From assembly GCA_007119965.1 (NCBI GenBank), contig SKOR01000022.1, positions 1 to 33,987 on the forward strand: 33,987 nt of DNA, written 5' to 3'. Below the pieces are notes generated by a model. It was not told the origin of the DNA. It searched no databases and was given only the letters and a program-made list of their open reading frames with translations. Both the position numbers and the translations under genes were made by a program. This stretch comes from Syntrophomonadaceae bacterium (GTDB taxonomy: Bacteria > Bacillota > Dethiobacteria > DTU022). Below, piece after piece: positions 3,818-26,032 of this stretch (its first letter is position 1; each line of letters opens with the position of its first letter).

Positions 3818-5317
3818 TTATTTTCGATTATTGCGAGCTTTCTGCAGGTGATAGCGCAGGGCCCGGGGAGTAATGCCCAAGAGCTTTGCCGCTTTTACCT
3901 GGTTGCCGTAGGTGTCCTCCAGGGCCGCTTCGATAATGCCGGCTATCAGTGAATCCCGCCATTGATTGATATCCCGGCAGAAAAGATCAAAGTCAAAGCC
4001 ATCCCGAATTTTAATGGATTCAAAAAGCGCCTCCTGAAAGGATTCTAACAACCCGTTCAACCCGGCCCCATCTTCAACGATGCCCGAAAAGAGAACACCG
4101 TTCGAGTTTTTACCTTCTGCCGTGTCCTGCAGTATTTGCTCCGGTTCAGCAGTGTTTTTGCGAATACGTTCCGGGAGGTCTTCAACATCGATCAGCGCCC
4201 CTTTGCAGAGCAGGAGGGCCTGTGCCACTGTGTTGGAGAGTTCCCTGATATTGCCCGGCCAGCGGTGTTTTTTCATAACGGCCAGGGCATCATCCGTAAA
4301 TAACTTGATCGGGATCTGCTTGGCAGCAGATTCTTTTTTCAGGAAGTAGTCGATAAAAATCTCAATGTCATCGGGCCTTTCCCTAAGTGGGGGGATGGTT
4401 AAAGAGGCGACATCCAGGCGGTAAAAAAGATCTTCGCGAAACCGGTTGTCTGCTACTTTAGCCGCCAGGTCAGCATTTGTTGCCGTGATAATGCGGACAT
4501 CTACCTTGCACATTTCTTCCCCGCCGACTCGTAAAAATTCTCCCGTTTCCAATACGCGCAGCAGCTTAATTTGAATAGCCGGACTGGCGGAGTCAATTTC
4601 GTCAAGAAACAGGGTTGCCTTGTTAGCCTGTTCAAAAATCCCCTTTTTTTGCTGCGCAGCCCCGGTAAAGGAGCCTTTTTCATGACCAAAAAGTTCACTT
4701 TCAAGGAGCGTTTCAGTAAAAGCGCCGCAGTTGAAAGCGAGGAATGACCGGTCACAACGATGGCTTGCTGAATGGATGTAGCGGGCCAGGACTTCTTTCC
4801 CGGTTCCGGTTTCGCCCTGGATCAGGACGGTAATATTTTTTTTGGCAATCTTTTGTGCTGCAGAAACCAGGCCGAGCATTTTTTGGCTATTACCGACAAC
4901 AAACCCTAATTCCTGCCGGGCGAGCGAAAGTTTTTCAGATTCCTCTTTTACATTCAGCGAGCGATCCAGCAGGTGCTCCATTTCATTAATATCGACGAAC
5001 GGTTTTTCCACGTAATCGAAGGCGCCGAGCTGGATGGCCTCCACGGCAGACTTTACTGTAGAGTACCCTGTAATGATTATAACTTCACACTGCGGCTGAA
5101 CATTTTTTATTTCCCTTAAGATATCCAAACCGTTAGCATCGGGCAGCTTCAGGTCAACCAGCGCAGTTGCAAAGTTGTACTGTTCCAATCTTGCTGAAGC
5201 CTCTGCCCCGGTATTGGCAGTAACCGCAGCGTAGCCTTTTTGTTTAAGGAGATAGCTGAAAAAGTTGCATACTTCCTGTTCGTCATCAACGATCAAAAAC
5301 CGGGGTTGTTCCGCCAT
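3818..5317 (-). CDS. Sigma-54-dependent response regulator (NtrC family)
   Basis: A 499-residue enhancer-binding activator with the classic three-part layout. The receiver domain (about 5-120) has the acidic pair D11/D12, phospho-acceptor D55 and K105. The AAA+ domain has Walker A GETGTGKE at 168-175, the sigma-54 contact loop GAFTGA, Walker B LFLDEID, and an LRERPDDI segment. A C-terminal Fis-type helix-turn-helix (about 460-495, NQVKAAKLLGITPRALRYHL) binds DNA. An unusually long linker of about 80 residues separates the AAA+ domain from the helix-turn-helix. It is the last gene of the cluster, 34 nt after the histidine kinase, and GGAGGGAAG precedes the ATG. The near-consensus sigma-54 promoter and dyads before the channel gene are its likely target (inference). 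Confidence 0.93.
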   Translation of the reverse strand: MAEQPRFLIVDDEQEVCNFFSYLLKQKGYAAVTANTGAEASARLEQYNFATALVDLKLPDANGLDILREIKNVQPQCEVIIITGYSTVKSAVEAIQLGAFDYVEKPFVDINEMEHLLDRSLNVKEESEKLSLARQELGFVVGNSQKMLGLVSAAQKIAKKNITVLIQGETGTGKEVLARYIHSASHRCDRSFLAFNCGAFTETLLESELFGHEKGSFTGAAQQKKGIFEQANKATLFLDEIDSASPAIQIKLLRVLETGEFLRVGGEEMCKVDVRIITATNADLAAKVADNRFREDLFYRLDVASLTIPPLRERPDDIEIFIDYFLKKESAAKQIPIKLFTDDALAVMKKHRWPGNIRELSNTVAQALLLCKGALIDVEDLPERIRKNTAEPEQILQDTAEGKNSNGVLFSGIVEDGAGLNGLLESFQEALFESIKIRDGFDFDLFCRDINQWRDSLIAGIIEAALEDTYGNQVKAAKLLGITPRALRYHLQKARNNRK

Positions 5318-5351: not shown

Positions 5352-6548
5352 TTAATCACACTGCATTTTCATAGTGCCGTTTTTAACGGGCGCCTCCTGA
5401 TCAAGGGGCAGGATTAAGCTGAACGTACTTCCCTCGCCAACGGTTGTATCGAGATCAATGAAGCCGCCGTGCGCCTGGGCGATACCGAGGCTGACCGATA
5501 AACCGAGCCCGGTCCCTTTGCCGCTTGATTTTGTAGTATAAAAAGGGTTAAATATTTGCGAGACATGCTCCTGCTCTATACCGTGACCGTTATCGGATAC
5601 ATCTACTATCGCAAACTCGTTGTCGGGGTGAATCCTGGTTTTGATGGTGACAATTCCTTTTTCGCCATTCTTTTCAGTCTGCATTTTTTCTTCTACAGCA
5701 TCTTTGGCATTCAGCAGAAGGTTTACAATAATTTGTTCCAGGCCGTTGCCGCTGCCTGACAGCGCGGGAACGTTTTCATAAAGGTCGACAACCAGGTCAA
5801 TCTTGCTTTTTTCGATCTGGTAAGCGGCCAGCTCCAGGCCGCTCTTAACTATTGTATTTAAGTCGATTTTTTCAAAGGTAAACTCATCCTGCCTGGAAAA
5901 GGTCATCAGGTTTTTTATAATCCGCTGGCAGCGGATACCGCTGGTATGAATGTCCTTAATTAACTGATAATGAGGGTTGTCGGGGGATGCTTCCCTGAGG
6001 AGCAGCTGTGAATTCCCAACAATTGCTGTCAGGGGGCTGTTCAATTCATGGGCAACTCCGGCCGACATTTCGCCCATCGAGGCCAGTTTGATCGAATCGA
6101 TCAGGCGGGTTACATCTTTGGCGTAATATGTTACGCCGTAAGGTTTATTTTGCTCGGTAAAAGCCGGGTAGGCAAATATATCGAGCACCCGGTTATAACG
6201 GGTCCTCGATTGCAGGTAAGATGTTTTCTGGGTATTTAAAACCTGGTCGCCAATGCAGGGGCTGCACTTTTCTTCGCGGCCGTAAAATAATTTATAGCAT
6301 TTTGAACCAAGCAGATCACTTTCAGGGGTTGTGAAAAAATCAACAGCAGCCTTGTTCACCCGTTGGATTTCGTAATCGCTGTTAATGAAAACCAGCAGAT
6401 CGGTGACTGCAGAAAAAGTAACTTCCCATTCGCGTTTAATTTGCAGCAGTTCATTGATCTTTTCCTTTAATGCGACGTAGTAAGATTTTTTTGAACTGTG
6501 AACTCCGGTTAGCTTTTCAATCAGCTCTTTTTTGTTTTGCATAACCAT
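5352..6548 (-). CDS. Soluble PAS-domain sensor histidine kinase
   Basis: A 398-residue histidine kinase with no membrane segment, so it senses a cytoplasmic signal. A coiled stretch (about 1-40) is followed by a PAS domain (about 41-150), then a HisKA domain with phospho-acceptor H167 in AGVAHELNSPLTAI. The HATPase domain has an N box near NLLLNAKDAV, then DNGHGIE and GKGTGLGLSVS. The PAS domain carries C84, C95 and C98 in a CYKLF-x6-CSPC arrangement, a pattern seen in other PAS proteins that could bind metal or sense redox (inference). Its ATG overlaps the stop of the upstream ADH-like gene by 1 nt (TAATG), so the two are translationally coupled. The response regulator follows and is the obvious partner. 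Confidence 0.93.
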   Translation of the reverse strand: MVMQNKKELIEKLTGVHSSKKSYYVALKEKINELLQIKREWEVTFSAVTDLLVFINSDYEIQRVNKAAVDFFTTPESDLLGSKCYKLFYGREEKCSPCIGDQVLNTQKTSYLQSRTRYNRVLDIFAYPAFTEQNKPYGVTYYAKDVTRLIDSIKLASMGEMSAGVAHELNSPLTAIVGNSQLLLREASPDNPHYQLIKDIHTSGIRCQRIIKNLMTFSRQDEFTFEKIDLNTIVKSGLELAAYQIEKSKIDLVVDLYENVPALSGSGNGLEQIIVNLLLNAKDAVEEKMQTEKNGEKGIVTIKTRIHPDNEFAIVDVSDNGHGIEQEHVSQIFNPFYTTKSSGKGTGLGLSVSLGIAQAHGGFIDLDTTVGEGSTFSLILPLDQEAPVKNGTMKMQCD

Positions 6549-7717
6549 TATTGCTCACCATCCTTTGCCTCTAAGGCAGAGCGAAAGATATTTATAATGT
6601 CGTCTTCATCAGCGTCCCTGGGGTTGGTTATGAAACAGGCATCATTAATGGCATTGCGGCTCAGGTTTGGAATGGAATCTTCCGGTAAGCCGAGTTCGGC
6701 CAGGCCTGAAGGAATGCCCACGTCCCGGGCAAGTTCACGCACCATGTTGATCGCTTCTTCCGCTTTTTCACGTGTTGACATGTTGTCAGTTTGTGCTCCC
6801 ATAACTTCGGCAATGGAGGCATATTTATCGACACAGGCAATTAAATTAAAGCGCATTACATAAGGCAGCAGGACGGCGTTAATTGTGCCGATCGGCAGGT
6901 CAAGCAGTCCGCCTACCTGGTGGGTCATGGCGTGGGTCAGTCCGAGAACAGCATTGGAAAAGGCTATCCCTGCATGTAAGCTTGCTTTGCTCATGGCGAT
7001 TTTCGCGGCTTCATCGACCTGGCTGGCTACCGATGACCTGAGGTTGGCAGAGATTAATTTAATGGCGTGCAAAGCATGGATGTCGGTCATATCAGTGGCT
7101 GCCAAAGACAGGTAAGCTTCAATGGCATGGCTGAGGGCTTCCATGCCGGTGTGCGCAGTCACTTTGCTATTTACCGTTGACAGGATCAGCGGGTCGGTAA
7201 TAGCGATATCCGGGACGAGTGACTTTGAAATAATGGTCATCTTTATTTTTCTTTTGCTGTCAGATATAATCGCAAACTGTGAAACTTCCGCCCCGGAGCC
7301 TGCCGTGGAAGGGATCACAATTAAAGGCGGCAGGGGTTCTTTGATCATATCAATACCTTCAAAGTCATGAATCTTTCCCCGGTTAGTTGACAGGGTGGCC
7401 ACAGCTTTTGCGGCATCAACAGCGCTGCCTCCCCCGATCGCCAGGACGGCATCACAGCCGCAATCGTTAAAAAGAATAGCTCCTTCTTCCACTTCGTAAT
7501 CTCTCGGGTTCGCAGAAAAATCTGTCCAGAGCCGGTACTCGAGATTTGCTTCATTCAGAAAAAAAATCGCTTTTTCGACCCACCCGCAGATGAGAACTCC
7601 GGGGTCGGCTACCAGGAAAACACGGGATGAACCGAGGCGGCTGCAGCATTCACCGGCCTGGCTCAGGGAACCGGTACCGTAAATAATTTCCGGGGTTACA
7701 AATTTACTGATATACAT
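6548..7717 (-). CDS. Fe-ADH superfamily protein, ErcA-like, with altered metal site
   Basis: A 389-residue member of the iron-containing alcohol dehydrogenase superfamily. The NAD(P)-binding GGGSAVDAAK motif (about 95-104) and the STAGSGAEVSQFAIISD segment are present. The fold pattern, including KFVTPEIIYG near the start, NPRDYEV, HDFEGID and ISKSLVPDIAI, resembles ErcA as I remember it. ErcA is an ADH homologue encoded beside a PAS kinase in Pseudomonas and implicated in regulating ethanol use. Against FucO (D196, H200, H263, H277) the aligned residues are E193, H197, H262 and I276, so two of four metal ligands are changed. The ATG chosen follows AAAGGCGG by 8 nt; an in-frame TTG 21 nt upstream lacks a good site. 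It could be a sensor or accessory protein rather than a dehydrogenase. Confidence 0.85.
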   Translation of the reverse strand: MYISKFVTPEIIYGTGSLSQAGECCSRLGSSRVFLVADPGVLICGWVEKAIFFLNEANLEYRLWTDFSANPRDYEVEEGAILFNDCGCDAVLAIGGGSAVDAAKAVATLSTNRGKIHDFEGIDMIKEPLPPLIVIPSTAGSGAEVSQFAIISDSKRKIKMTIISKSLVPDIAITDPLILSTVNSKVTAHTGMEALSHAIEAYLSLAATDMTDIHALHAIKLISANLRSSVASQVDEAAKIAMSKASLHAGIAFSNAVLGLTHAMTHQVGGLLDLPIGTINAVLLPYVMRFNLIACVDKYASIAEVMGAQTDNMSTREKAEEAINMVRELARDVGIPSGLAELGLPEDSIPNLSRNAINDACFITNPRDADEDDIINIFRSALEAKDGEQ

Positions 7718-7889: not shown

Positions 7890-8153
7890 TCATCTGCCCG
7901 GCAGTAGCGCCGGTTCCCTGTTGATCTCGTTCCCCTTTGCATGCGATTCTTCATATATTTCAGGGACCAGCCCAAAGCCGACATTGTTTTCCATTGTCTT
8001 TTTGCAGCTGCTTCTCTGCTGTTCTGTGCAGCCGCAGCTTTTCGCTTCTGTTACCGACAATTTTTTCCCGTATGCCCCGGCGCTGCAGAACATAACCCAC
8101 CCGTTGAGTCCGTGGTATTCTTTCCAGTGTTCGCAGTTGACCAGCTTTTTCAT
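7890..8153 (-). CDS. Small four-cysteine protein, stand-alone copy of the channel's N-terminal domain
   Basis: An 87-residue soluble protein that I cannot assign to a named family. Cysteines lie at 7, 23, 40, 42 and 50. Four of them (7, 23, 42, 50) have the spacing C-x15-C-x18-C-x7-C, identical to the N-terminal domain of the channel encoded just upstream. Without gaps, about 21 of 59 positions are identical, including W10, E12-Y13, G18, V20, G41-C42-T43, R47, M54-E55 and a VGxGxxPE ending. The start follows AAGGAG; a longer open frame of 19 more codons has no ribosome site. It lies 57 nt after the channel stop codon. Four conserved cysteines suggest a metal or Fe-S site (inference). Confidence 0.8.
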   Translation of the reverse strand: MKKLVNCEHWKEYHGLNGWVMFCSAGAYGKKLSVTEAKSCGCTEQQRSSCKKTMENNVGFGLVPEIYEESHAKGNEINREPALLPGR

Positions 8154-8210
8154 GTTTTCTGCTCCTTTCCGATTATTACTTAATTCTTTTCTGCAGGGTT
8201 TGCCCTGCAT

Positions 8211-9302
8211 TTAGGTTCGCCCGTTGAGAATAAGGCTTTTCGGCAGGTTCGGACGCAGATAGCAGGTCCAGTAGGCGACAGCAACAAATAATACCCCGCC
8301 GATAATGTTGCCGATAGTAACCGGGATCAGGTTGCTAAAAAAGAACGCCTGCCAGGTGATACCCTGCATTACCGTCGGTGAAACCAAGGCCTGGGCAAAT
8401 TCGGCGTTTTTAACCAGCAGCCCCATGGGAATAAAAAACATGTTGGCTATAGAGTGTTCAAAACCGGCAGCGACGAAAGCTGTAATTGGAATCATGATTG
8501 CCAGTATTTTGCTAATCGCATCTTTTCCGGCCAGGGCGATCCAGACGGCAAGGCAGACCAGCCAGTTGCAGAGAATGCCGCGGAAAAGCGCTTCACTCCA
8601 GGTCAGGCTTGTTTTGGCAGAGGCTATATCAATAATTCTTACAGCGATACTGCCGTCGTTTGCCTGCCAGATTCCTGAGAAGAAAAACAGGATCACAACA
8701 ACGAGCGCGCCAACAAAGTTGAAAATGTAAACCCAAAACCAGTTTGAGAGGACCTGCCTTCCGCTCACTTTTTTCTCCAGGTAACCGGCTGCAAGCAGGT
8801 TGTTCCCTGTAAACAGCTCAGCCCCTCCGAGAATGACCAGGATTAACCCGATTGAAAAGGTAACTCCACCTACCAGGCGGCTTAAACCGTCGCCGATATA
8901 GATTGCCAGGTCATTAGTGATAATGGTGAACATTACAGCGCCCAGTGCGATGTAGGCCCCGGCAAGGATCGCCAGCATGACAAGGGCGGGAGCGGCCAGG
9001 GCAGTTTTTTTCTGAGCAGTTCCGACAACTGTTTTGGCAATCTCCTGTGGCGGGTCGCATGTTAAAACGGGTGGCGACATTGGCGCCGGGACAGGCTGCA
9101 GGGCAGGCAGTTCTTCGGGGATTACCCCTGCCCCTACAGCGAGCTCCATGCTTTTCAGACAATCTTTTCTTTTGTCCGGGGTGCAGCCGATTGCCATCAG
9201 GAACTGGGGATTTACCGGCCTGTTGAAGGCCGCCAGTTCACAGTAGCATACATGGCCTGCAATTGAATCGTATTCATTCCAGAATGCACACATGTCTTTC
9301 AT
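8211..9302 (-). CDS. Formate/nitrite-family channel with N-terminal four-Cys domain
   Basis: A 363-residue protein in two parts. Residues about 1-65 are a hydrophilic domain with C5, C21, C40 and C48 (plus C19), matching the neighbouring small protein. A Pro-rich linker (about 66-95) leads to a FocA/NirC-type channel at about 100-355. Channel hallmarks include GAYIALGAVMF, GAELFTGNN, NWFWVYIFNFVGAL, CNWLVCLAVW, GFEHSIANMFFIPMG (with the conserved pore His) and PVTIGNIIGG, all closest to FocA-type formate channels. A usual FNT protein is about 260-290 residues, so the extra length is the cysteine domain. FocA N-termini are cytoplasmic, so this domain should sit inside and could gate the pore. 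GAGGAGG precedes the ATG. It is the first gene after the sigma-54 promoter. Substrate (formate, nitrite or another small anion) is not proven. Confidence 0.93.
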   Translation of the reverse strand: MKDMCAFWNEYDSIAGHVCYCELAAFNRPVNPQFLMAIGCTPDKRKDCLKSMELAVGAGVIPEELPALQPVPAPMSPPVLTCDPPQEIAKTVVGTAQKKTALAAPALVMLAILAGAYIALGAVMFTIITNDLAIYIGDGLSRLVGGVTFSIGLILVILGGAELFTGNNLLAAGYLEKKVSGRQVLSNWFWVYIFNFVGALVVVILFFFSGIWQANDGSIAVRIIDIASAKTSLTWSEALFRGILCNWLVCLAVWIALAGKDAISKILAIMIPITAFVAAGFEHSIANMFFIPMGLLVKNAEFAQALVSPTVMQGITWQAFFFSNLIPVTIGNIIGGVLFVAVAYWTCYLRPNLPKSLILNGRT

Positions 9303-9354: not shown

Positions 9355-9370
9355 TGCAATCTGCATGCCA
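9355..9370 (-). promoter_or_regulatory. Sigma-54 promoter (-24/-12) for the channel cluster
   Basis: On the minus strand the sequence reads TGGCATG-CAGA-TTGCA, against the consensus TGGCACG-N4-TTGCA, with the GG and GC at the required spacing. Transcription would start near 9344, about 40 nt before the channel ATG. The sigma-54 activator at the end of the same cluster makes this a very credible promoter. Confidence 0.9.
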
Positions 9371-24268: not shown

Positions 24269-26032
24269 ATGGCATTAGATCCAACCAAACATGCCGACTG
24301 GGAAATAGCTGAAGCTGCTGAATCAGGCATGAAAAAGGTATACCAGTTGGCAGAGGAGCTCAAGCTTGAGCAGGAAGAGCTCCTTCCCCACGGCCACTAT
24401 GTGGCTAAAGTTGACTACAAGAAAGTACTTGACAGAAAGAAAGATGCCCCCGGTGGAAAATATATCGATGTTACTGCGATTACACCCACCCCGCTCGGCG
24501 AAGGAAAATCAACATCAACCATGGGCTTGACCCAGGGGATGGGCAAACTGGGTAAAAATGTTCTGGCGACTATCCGCCAGCCATCAGGCGGGCCGACCAT
24601 GAACGTTAAGGGTTCTGCCGCAGGTGGCGGTTTAGCCCAGTGTATTCCTTTGACCCCCTTTTCTCTCGGTTTAACCGGGGACATCAATGCAATCATGAAT
24701 GCCCACAACCTGGGTATGGTCGCTTTGAACTCCCGCCTGCAGCACGAAGCTAACTCCACCGATGCTTTTATGGAGCGCAGTGGCCTGAAGCGGTTAAATA
24801 TCGATCCGAAAAATGTATCTATGAACTGGATTATTGACTTTTGCGCCCAGGGCCTGCGTAATATCATCATTGGCCTTGGCGGAAGAAAAGACGGCTTCAT
24901 GATGAGCTCAGGGTTCAATATTGCGGTTTCTTCCGAGGTTATGGCGATTCTGGCTGTTGCCAATGATTTAAAAGATATGCGCGAACGGATGGGCAAGATT
25001 GTGGTTGCTTACGATAAAAGAGGCAAACCGGTGACCACTGAAGATCTCGATGTTGCCGGTGCGATGACCGCCTGGATGGTTGAAGCAATCAACCCCAACC
25101 TGATGCAAACCCTTGAAGGACAGCCGGTCTTTGTTCATGCCGGCCCGTTTGCAAATATTGCTATTGGTCAGTCTTCAATTATTGCTGACCGGGTTGGCCT
25201 AAAACTTAGCGATTATGTGATCACCGAGTCGGGTTTTGCAGCCGATATCGGTTTCGAGAAATTCTGGAACCTGAAGTGCCGCATGTCCGGCCTGACTCCT
25301 GACTGCGCAGTTCTCGTGGCCACCATTCGTGCTCTTAAGTGTCACGGTGGAGCGCCGCTGCCGCAGCCGGGCCAGCCGCTTGATCCCGCTTACAAAGAGG
25401 AAAATGTTGAGTGGGTGGAAAAAGGCTGTGAAAACTTAATTCACCATATTAATACCGTAAAAAAAGCCGGGATCAGCCCGGTAGTTTGCATTAACCACTT
25501 CTATACTGATACTGATAACGAAGTTAATGCTGTTCGCCGCCTGGCAGAAGCAGCAGGCGCCAGGGTTGCTCTTTCCAAGCACTGGCAGTACGGTGGCGAC
25601 GGAGCCAAGGAATTTGCCGAAGCTGTGGTCGAAGCCTGTGATGAACCGACCGATTTCAAATTCCTTTACGAATTAGAAACCCCGCTGCGTGAGCGTATTG
25701 ATCTGATTGCCAGGGAAGTGTACGGAGCAGACGGTGTTGAGTATTCTCCCGATGCGCTTGCGAAAGCTAAAAAGATGGAACAGGATCCCCAGATCCAAAA
25801 GATGGGTACCTGCATGGTTAAGACTCACCTCAGCCTCAGCGATAATCCTATGCTAAAAGGTGTTCCGAAAGGCTGGAAACTTAACATCCGCGATATTCTC
25901 ACCTACGGTGGGGCCGATTTCGTAGTGCCTGTTGCCGGGGCGATCTCCCTGATGCCCGGAACTGCTGCCAGTCCTGCTTACCGCAAGGTTGACGTTGATG
26001 TCGAAACCGGTAAAGTGCAGGGCTTGTTCTAA
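24269..26032 (+). CDS. fhs: Formate--tetrahydrofolate ligase
   Basis: Makes 10-formyl-THF from formate, THF and ATP, the entry step of the methyl branch of the Wood-Ljungdahl pathway and of C1 metabolism generally. The P-loop [10 protein letters not shown] is near residues 74-83, followed by [19 protein letters not shown], the [12 protein letters not shown] segment, [14 protein letters not shown] and a [11 protein letters not shown] ending. At 587 residues it is about 30 longer than the common 555-560-residue enzyme. AAGGAGG precedes the ATG. It stands alone with terminators behind it; other C1-pathway genes are not in the window. Strong translation signals fit a highly expressed enzyme (inference). 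Confidence 0.97.

Follow-up and report, generated by a model that had tools for sequence, protein, structure and literature searches.

Why should a FocA-type channel carry, ahead of its channel core, a small domain with four cysteines that recurs on its own in the very next gene, and what might such a domain do there? The question is raised by a stretch of 33,987 nucleotides of bacterial DNA, here called the window, in which both genes lie on the minus strand.

Results and discussion

The channel gene (8211-9302, minus strand) encodes 363 amino acids and matches PF01226 (E 7.8e-81; residues 87-345, 271.4 bits against a curated cut-off of 34.6) as well as the fnt family TIGR00790 (257 bits, above the cut-off of 232.3). 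With the FocA equivalog TIGR04060 it scores 256.5 bits, under the cut-off of 290.1, and by these profile scores the channel is FocA-like and is not classed as a FocA orthologue. Its residues T165 and H283 correspond to the FocA pore residues T91 and H209 in an alignment to 3kcu, and both are invariant in 13 orthologues; formate is the putative substrate. The four-cysteine domain occupies channel residues 1-63 (9114-9302, minus strand; profile match E 1.2e-32), with cysteines C5, C21, C40 and C48 and a fifth one, C19, that is not conserved. A Pro/Ala-rich linker (residues 64-83) joins it to the canonical FNT N-terminal helix, PPQEIAKTVVGTAQKK... (residues 84-104; 8991-9053, minus strand), equivalent to the ...SPAEIA... 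helix at which other FNTs start; a helix spanning residues 86-101 was predicted in an AlphaFold2 model. The gene of the lone protein (7890-8153, minus strand) begins 57 nt downstream of the channel gene. Its reading frame is open from 8210 and the likely start is the ATG at 8153, preceded by AGGAG, which yields 87 amino acids with cysteines C7, C23, C42 and C50.

A gap-free BLASTP alignment pairs channel residues 5-63 with residues 7-65 of the lone protein (21 of 59 identities, E 9e-14), and the alignment score of 122 compares with a maximum of 47 among 5000 shuffles. Both window copies have precisely the spacing C-x15-C-x18-C-x7-C. A preliminary description of this DNA had claimed that the same four-cysteine domain occurs fused to the channel and alone in the next gene, with this spacing and about 21 of 59 identities, and that FNT channels normally have no such domain. 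The alignment confirmed the former points, and the last one agrees with 68 FNT loci of other lineages, which lack the domain and whose FNTs start directly at the ...PAEIA... helix. Together with the cysteines of the orthologues and the purifying selection described below, these data show that the fused and lone copies are homologous and not alike by chance. A chance or frameshift origin was ruled out by the BLASTP match, the dN/dS values and the shuffle test.

Novelty and conservation of the domain

For the window copies, no Pfam or NCBIfam family matched the four-cysteine domain over its cut-off. Searching 35 domain members against Pfam returned noise only, for example HycA_repressor at E 0.1 in 2 of the 35. 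HycA regulates formate hydrogenlyase, which makes this match tempting, and the identity was rejected as being at noise level. No relative was found in the PDB with an alignment profile of the domain. Two separate AlphaFold2 jobs predicted the same order E-E-H-H-H, a beta-hairpin with three helices, at low confidence (pLDDT 67 and 59); fold searches with the low-confidence model produced no convincing match, with a best E of 1.4 in Foldseek and one row, with a Z of 2.1, in VIA-align. In the open-licence literature we found no paper on an FNT with a Cys domain, and nothing on the combination of XRE, formate dehydrogenase and selenocysteine or on sigma-54 with a formate transporter. The domain represents a new small family of approximately 60 residues with four invariant cysteines that has no name in Pfam, NCBIfam or the PDB.

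The four cysteines are invariant in 64 distinct domain copies. Two alignments, of 37 and of 35 copies, show G16, A25, G39 and P62 to be invariant as well; T41 and R45 are fully conserved in one of them and almost so in the other. The invariant residues are shared by the fused, lone, XRE and HTH_17 forms of the domain. Conservation of the cysteines in orthologues had been set beforehand as a check on the initial proposal, which had also suggested a profile search; the profile recovered both domain sets in orthologues, with all four cysteines present throughout the two alignments. Strong purifying selection acts on both genes, with pairwise dN/dS values of approximately 0.03-0.11 for fused and lone copies alike. 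Furthermore, second FNT copies in loci with the order FNT-lone-FNT (L011, L012) have lost the MExxxG end of the domain and kept all four cysteines. A natural loss case is provided by a channel outside the core families (L099:1129-2193, minus strand, genome G036), where nothing but a decayed remnant is left of the Cys domain, MANRCRFWQNC...

Distribution and domain architectures

The domain is present in 32 of the 98 genomes of the window's class, and in all 30 that encode the fused channel intact, the lone copy adjoins it; the close relatives (loci L002-L013 and L082-L110) carry the same pair. In a sample of the phylum it was found in 20 of 398 genomes, two of these matches being weak and probably due to chance. 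Among 34 named FNT-bearing genomes, the sole test of phyla beyond the window's own, no domain copy was found anywhere. Plasmid-borne spread of the domain was also considered, and no match was found. The window's genome holds a third, lone copy (G000:C94:217-480, minus strand; L141) with a sigma-54 site 39 nt upstream. The 6.5-kb contig on which it lies also encodes a lactate-type MFS transporter and a nitroreductase.

Four architectures were observed. The domain is fused to an FNT channel in families f1, f5, f6 and f35; it occurs as a lone copy, adjoining the fused channel or elsewhere; in f6 the lone copy bears a C-terminal HTH_17/excisionase-type domain (L148, L149); and in f18, f45 and f60 (L153-L156) it lies C-terminal to an XRE HTH_3 domain (E 3e-12). 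In addition, a 171-aa reading frame (L142:1303-1809, plus strand) contains two tandem copies, of which the N-terminal half groups weakly, on a long branch, with channel-type domains and the C-terminal half with separate lone copies. This tandem gene, which has a sigma-54 site, stands beside an NtrC-type regulator resembling that of the window. No lone copy was found alongside the fused channels of family f35 (L159-L162, L164), hence a fused channel does not require a lone copy. By eye, the neighbours in several f35 loci resemble uroporphyrinogen-decarboxylase-type methyltransferases and corrinoid proteins.

In a tree built on few columns and with long branches, the fused copies split from the lone and XRE copies with support of 100/97; they seem to be old paralogues retained together and not recent duplicates. 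Such ancient sister clades kept side by side, and the HTH_17 DNA-binding domain on the lone partner of the f6 channel, would suit an arrangement akin to AmtB-GlnK or MalK-MalT: depending on the substrate, the lone (or lone-HTH) protein would be bound at the membrane by the fused domain, and transcription would thereby respond to the activity of the channel. However, the lone copies of f1 and f5 carry no DNA-binding domain, and we consider this arrangement quite unlikely.

The E. coli FocA N-terminal helix lies on the cytoplasmic face, gates the pore and is where PflB binds; translocation is disrupted when the helix is removed (PMC11841067; PMC12559229). With this docking site as precedent, the domain could hold one permanent, structural zinc and only recruit formate dehydrogenase or another formate producer to the mouth of the channel, without any sensing, the lone copy serving as an adaptor. 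A small four-cysteine domain with a hairpin and helices, as in the predicted fold, follows a common zinc-knuckle plan, and the retention of all four cysteines in second FNT copies that are otherwise degenerate would fit it too. The presence of the domain on XRE and HTH_17 regulators nevertheless points to signalling, beyond enzyme docking, which leaves pure zinc docking a possible but doubtful explanation.

The channel operon and its putative promoter

Downstream of the gene pair, on the same strand, lie three further genes. The first encodes an ErcA-like iron-containing alcohol dehydrogenase (6548-7717, minus strand; 470.9 bits with NF041833 ErcA), the second a PAS histidine kinase (5352-6548, minus strand; HisKA, HATPase_c and PAS_4), both conserved neighbours, and the third an NtrC/AtoC-type sigma-54 response regulator (3818-5317, minus strand; Response_reg, Sigma54_activat and HTH_8; AtoC-like, 421 bits). 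NF041833 is the best family throughout for the dehydrogenase, the next one scoring 348 bits; the three orthologues reach 470.9, 469.3 and 465.3 bits, all under the cut-off of 550. A cluster of cysteines in the PAS domain of the kinase, KCYKLFYGREEKCSPC, is a possible binding site for a metal or cofactor. The order of fused channel, lone copy, ErcA-like dehydrogenase, PAS kinase and NtrC-type regulator is kept in f1, f5 and f6, and in the class genomes the fused and lone pair is usually followed by these three genes.

The sole exact sigma-54 -24/-12 match in the window, the promoter TGGCATGCAGATTGCA (9355-9370, minus strand), is separated from the start codon of the channel by 52 nt. An element with at least 9 of 11 positions of the -24/-12 consensus was found 36-72 nt upstream in all 31 distinct leading fused channel genes (duplicates, two incomplete records and one second FNT copy behind a lone gene, in L013, were left out), as against 26 of 1155 control reading frames (2.3%) with a comparable element. 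Moreover, such an element precedes all five separate lone or tandem domain genes, including the third copy in the window's genome. A pattern search of this genome gave 15 sigma-54 sites, compared with 0-1 for the reversed control pattern. No sigma-54 sites were found at the loci that combine XRE and formate dehydrogenase genes. The linked NtrC-type regulator is a candidate for activating the channel promoter (9355-9370). Among this genome's other exact sites (L167-L181), some precede, by eye, genes resembling those for acyl-CoA dehydrogenases, trimethylamine methyltransferases and amino-acid-type dehydrogenases, and some lie inside genes or face away from them.

Association with formate dehydrogenase

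In four genomes from three distant families, the gene for the XRE-Cys protein is preceded by a lone copy and directly followed by a selenocysteine formate dehydrogenase operon. The dehydrogenase of these loci matches TIGR01591 (900 bits), and all four have an in-frame TGA within CARL-U-HSATVAGL (HSSTVAGL in one). In one locus (L153:6051-10649, plus strand), genes for the lone Cys protein, XRE-Cys, the selenocysteine formate dehydrogenase and AsrA/HydB-like Fe-S and AsrB/HydG-like flavin subunits follow one another in this order; the set has the appearance of a formate dehydrogenase with electron-transfer subunits of the sulfhydrogenase/sulfite-reductase type. The window's own genome encodes a selenocysteine formate dehydrogenase as well. 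Since all 60 relatives have formate dehydrogenase matches, whether or not the domain is present, co-occurrence with this enzyme is uninformative, and we dropped it as support. Next to the channel, genomes of the window's class encode no formate enzyme. In the window itself, a reading frame at 24269-26032 (plus strand), some 15 kb away from the channel, resembles, by eye, a formate-tetrahydrofolate ligase.

Selenocysteine formate dehydrogenases are generally oxygen-sensitive. Hosts that encode them might use the domain as a metal-free thiol-disulfide switch, in which stress would oxidise pairs of cysteines and thereby shut the channel or set the regulator free; the inclusion of all four cysteines in the strictest invariant set is in keeping with such a switch. 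Yet a metal site common to all architectures would account at least as well for four invariant cysteines whose spacing does not vary from one architecture to another, and no thioredoxin-type gene is adjacent in the loci examined. We regard a thiol switch as distinctly improbable.

Proposed role of the domain

The domain is real, consistently linked to formate metabolism and carried by a well-known channel family. It had been placed beforehand at the side where the FocA N-terminus gates the pore, and it does lie directly before the canonical FNT helix, which is cytoplasmic in E. coli FocA. The accompanying idea of a gate would fit this location; as the sole function it is too narrow, given that the domain is found also on XRE and HTH_17 proteins or alone. 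This wider use indicates a general regulatory or interaction module tied to formate metabolism. From sequence comparison, and with a probability of roughly one half, we propose that the domain is a regulatory or docking module of formate metabolism that lies in the cytoplasm, probably binds a metal (zinc or Fe-S), is placed before the gating helix and ties transcription as well as the channel to this metabolism.

For this module we infer metal binding, gating and a partnership between the lone and fused copies. The four cysteines would hold one metal site. On a cytoplasmic signal, which might be a redox or metal state or the docking of a formate enzyme, the domain would shift the position of the N-terminal helix; such docking is modelled on that of PflB on FocA. 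The free copy may pair with the fused one via the same surface and modulate it, and the linked set of ErcA-like protein, kinase and NtrC-type regulator would turn the operon on.

A bolder version would have a metal- or redox-sensing domain shared by the formate channel and transcription, with the free (or HTH-bearing) copy shuttling between the channel domain and a promoter-bound regulator. We hold this version to be unlikely; if true, the same molecule would set both channel opening and formate dehydrogenase expression. To our knowledge, no such channel-coupled signalling system has been described for FNT proteins.

These considerations bear on how FNT channels open and close and how formate flux is matched to the state of the cell in syntrophic and acetogenic anaerobes, for which the E. 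coli model rests on the N-terminal helix and PflB. That regulators beside formate dehydrogenase use the domain too suggests that transport and transcription share one signal. As the added N-terminal domain also exists in a soluble, 87-residue form, direct tests of its chemistry and of any binding to the channel are feasible.

Comparison with known systems

The window channel shares with FocA (PF01226; TIGR04060) the FNT core, the FEHSIANM motif, the pore residues H283 and T165 and the canonical N-terminal helix. Unlike FocA, it adds the 63-residue four-cysteine domain and the linker ahead of this helix, has a sigma-54 promoter and a co-encoded lone domain, and stays below the TIGR04060 cut-off. 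The adjacency of an iron-ADH-like gene and a PAS histidine kinase recalls the ErcA-ErcS / YiaY-YiaZ alcohol signalling of Pseudomonas (PMC12997753). In contrast to that system, the window dehydrogenase reaches 471 of the 550 bits demanded, the regulator is of the NtrC and not of the LuxR type, and the target seems to be the formate channel operon. With AtoSC/NtrC-type sigma-54 two-component systems, the locus has in common a kinase with an enhancer-binding regulator and a conserved -24/-12 promoter. Finally, the small soluble protein encoded beside the channel offers a possible analogy to the coupling of AmtB and GlnK.
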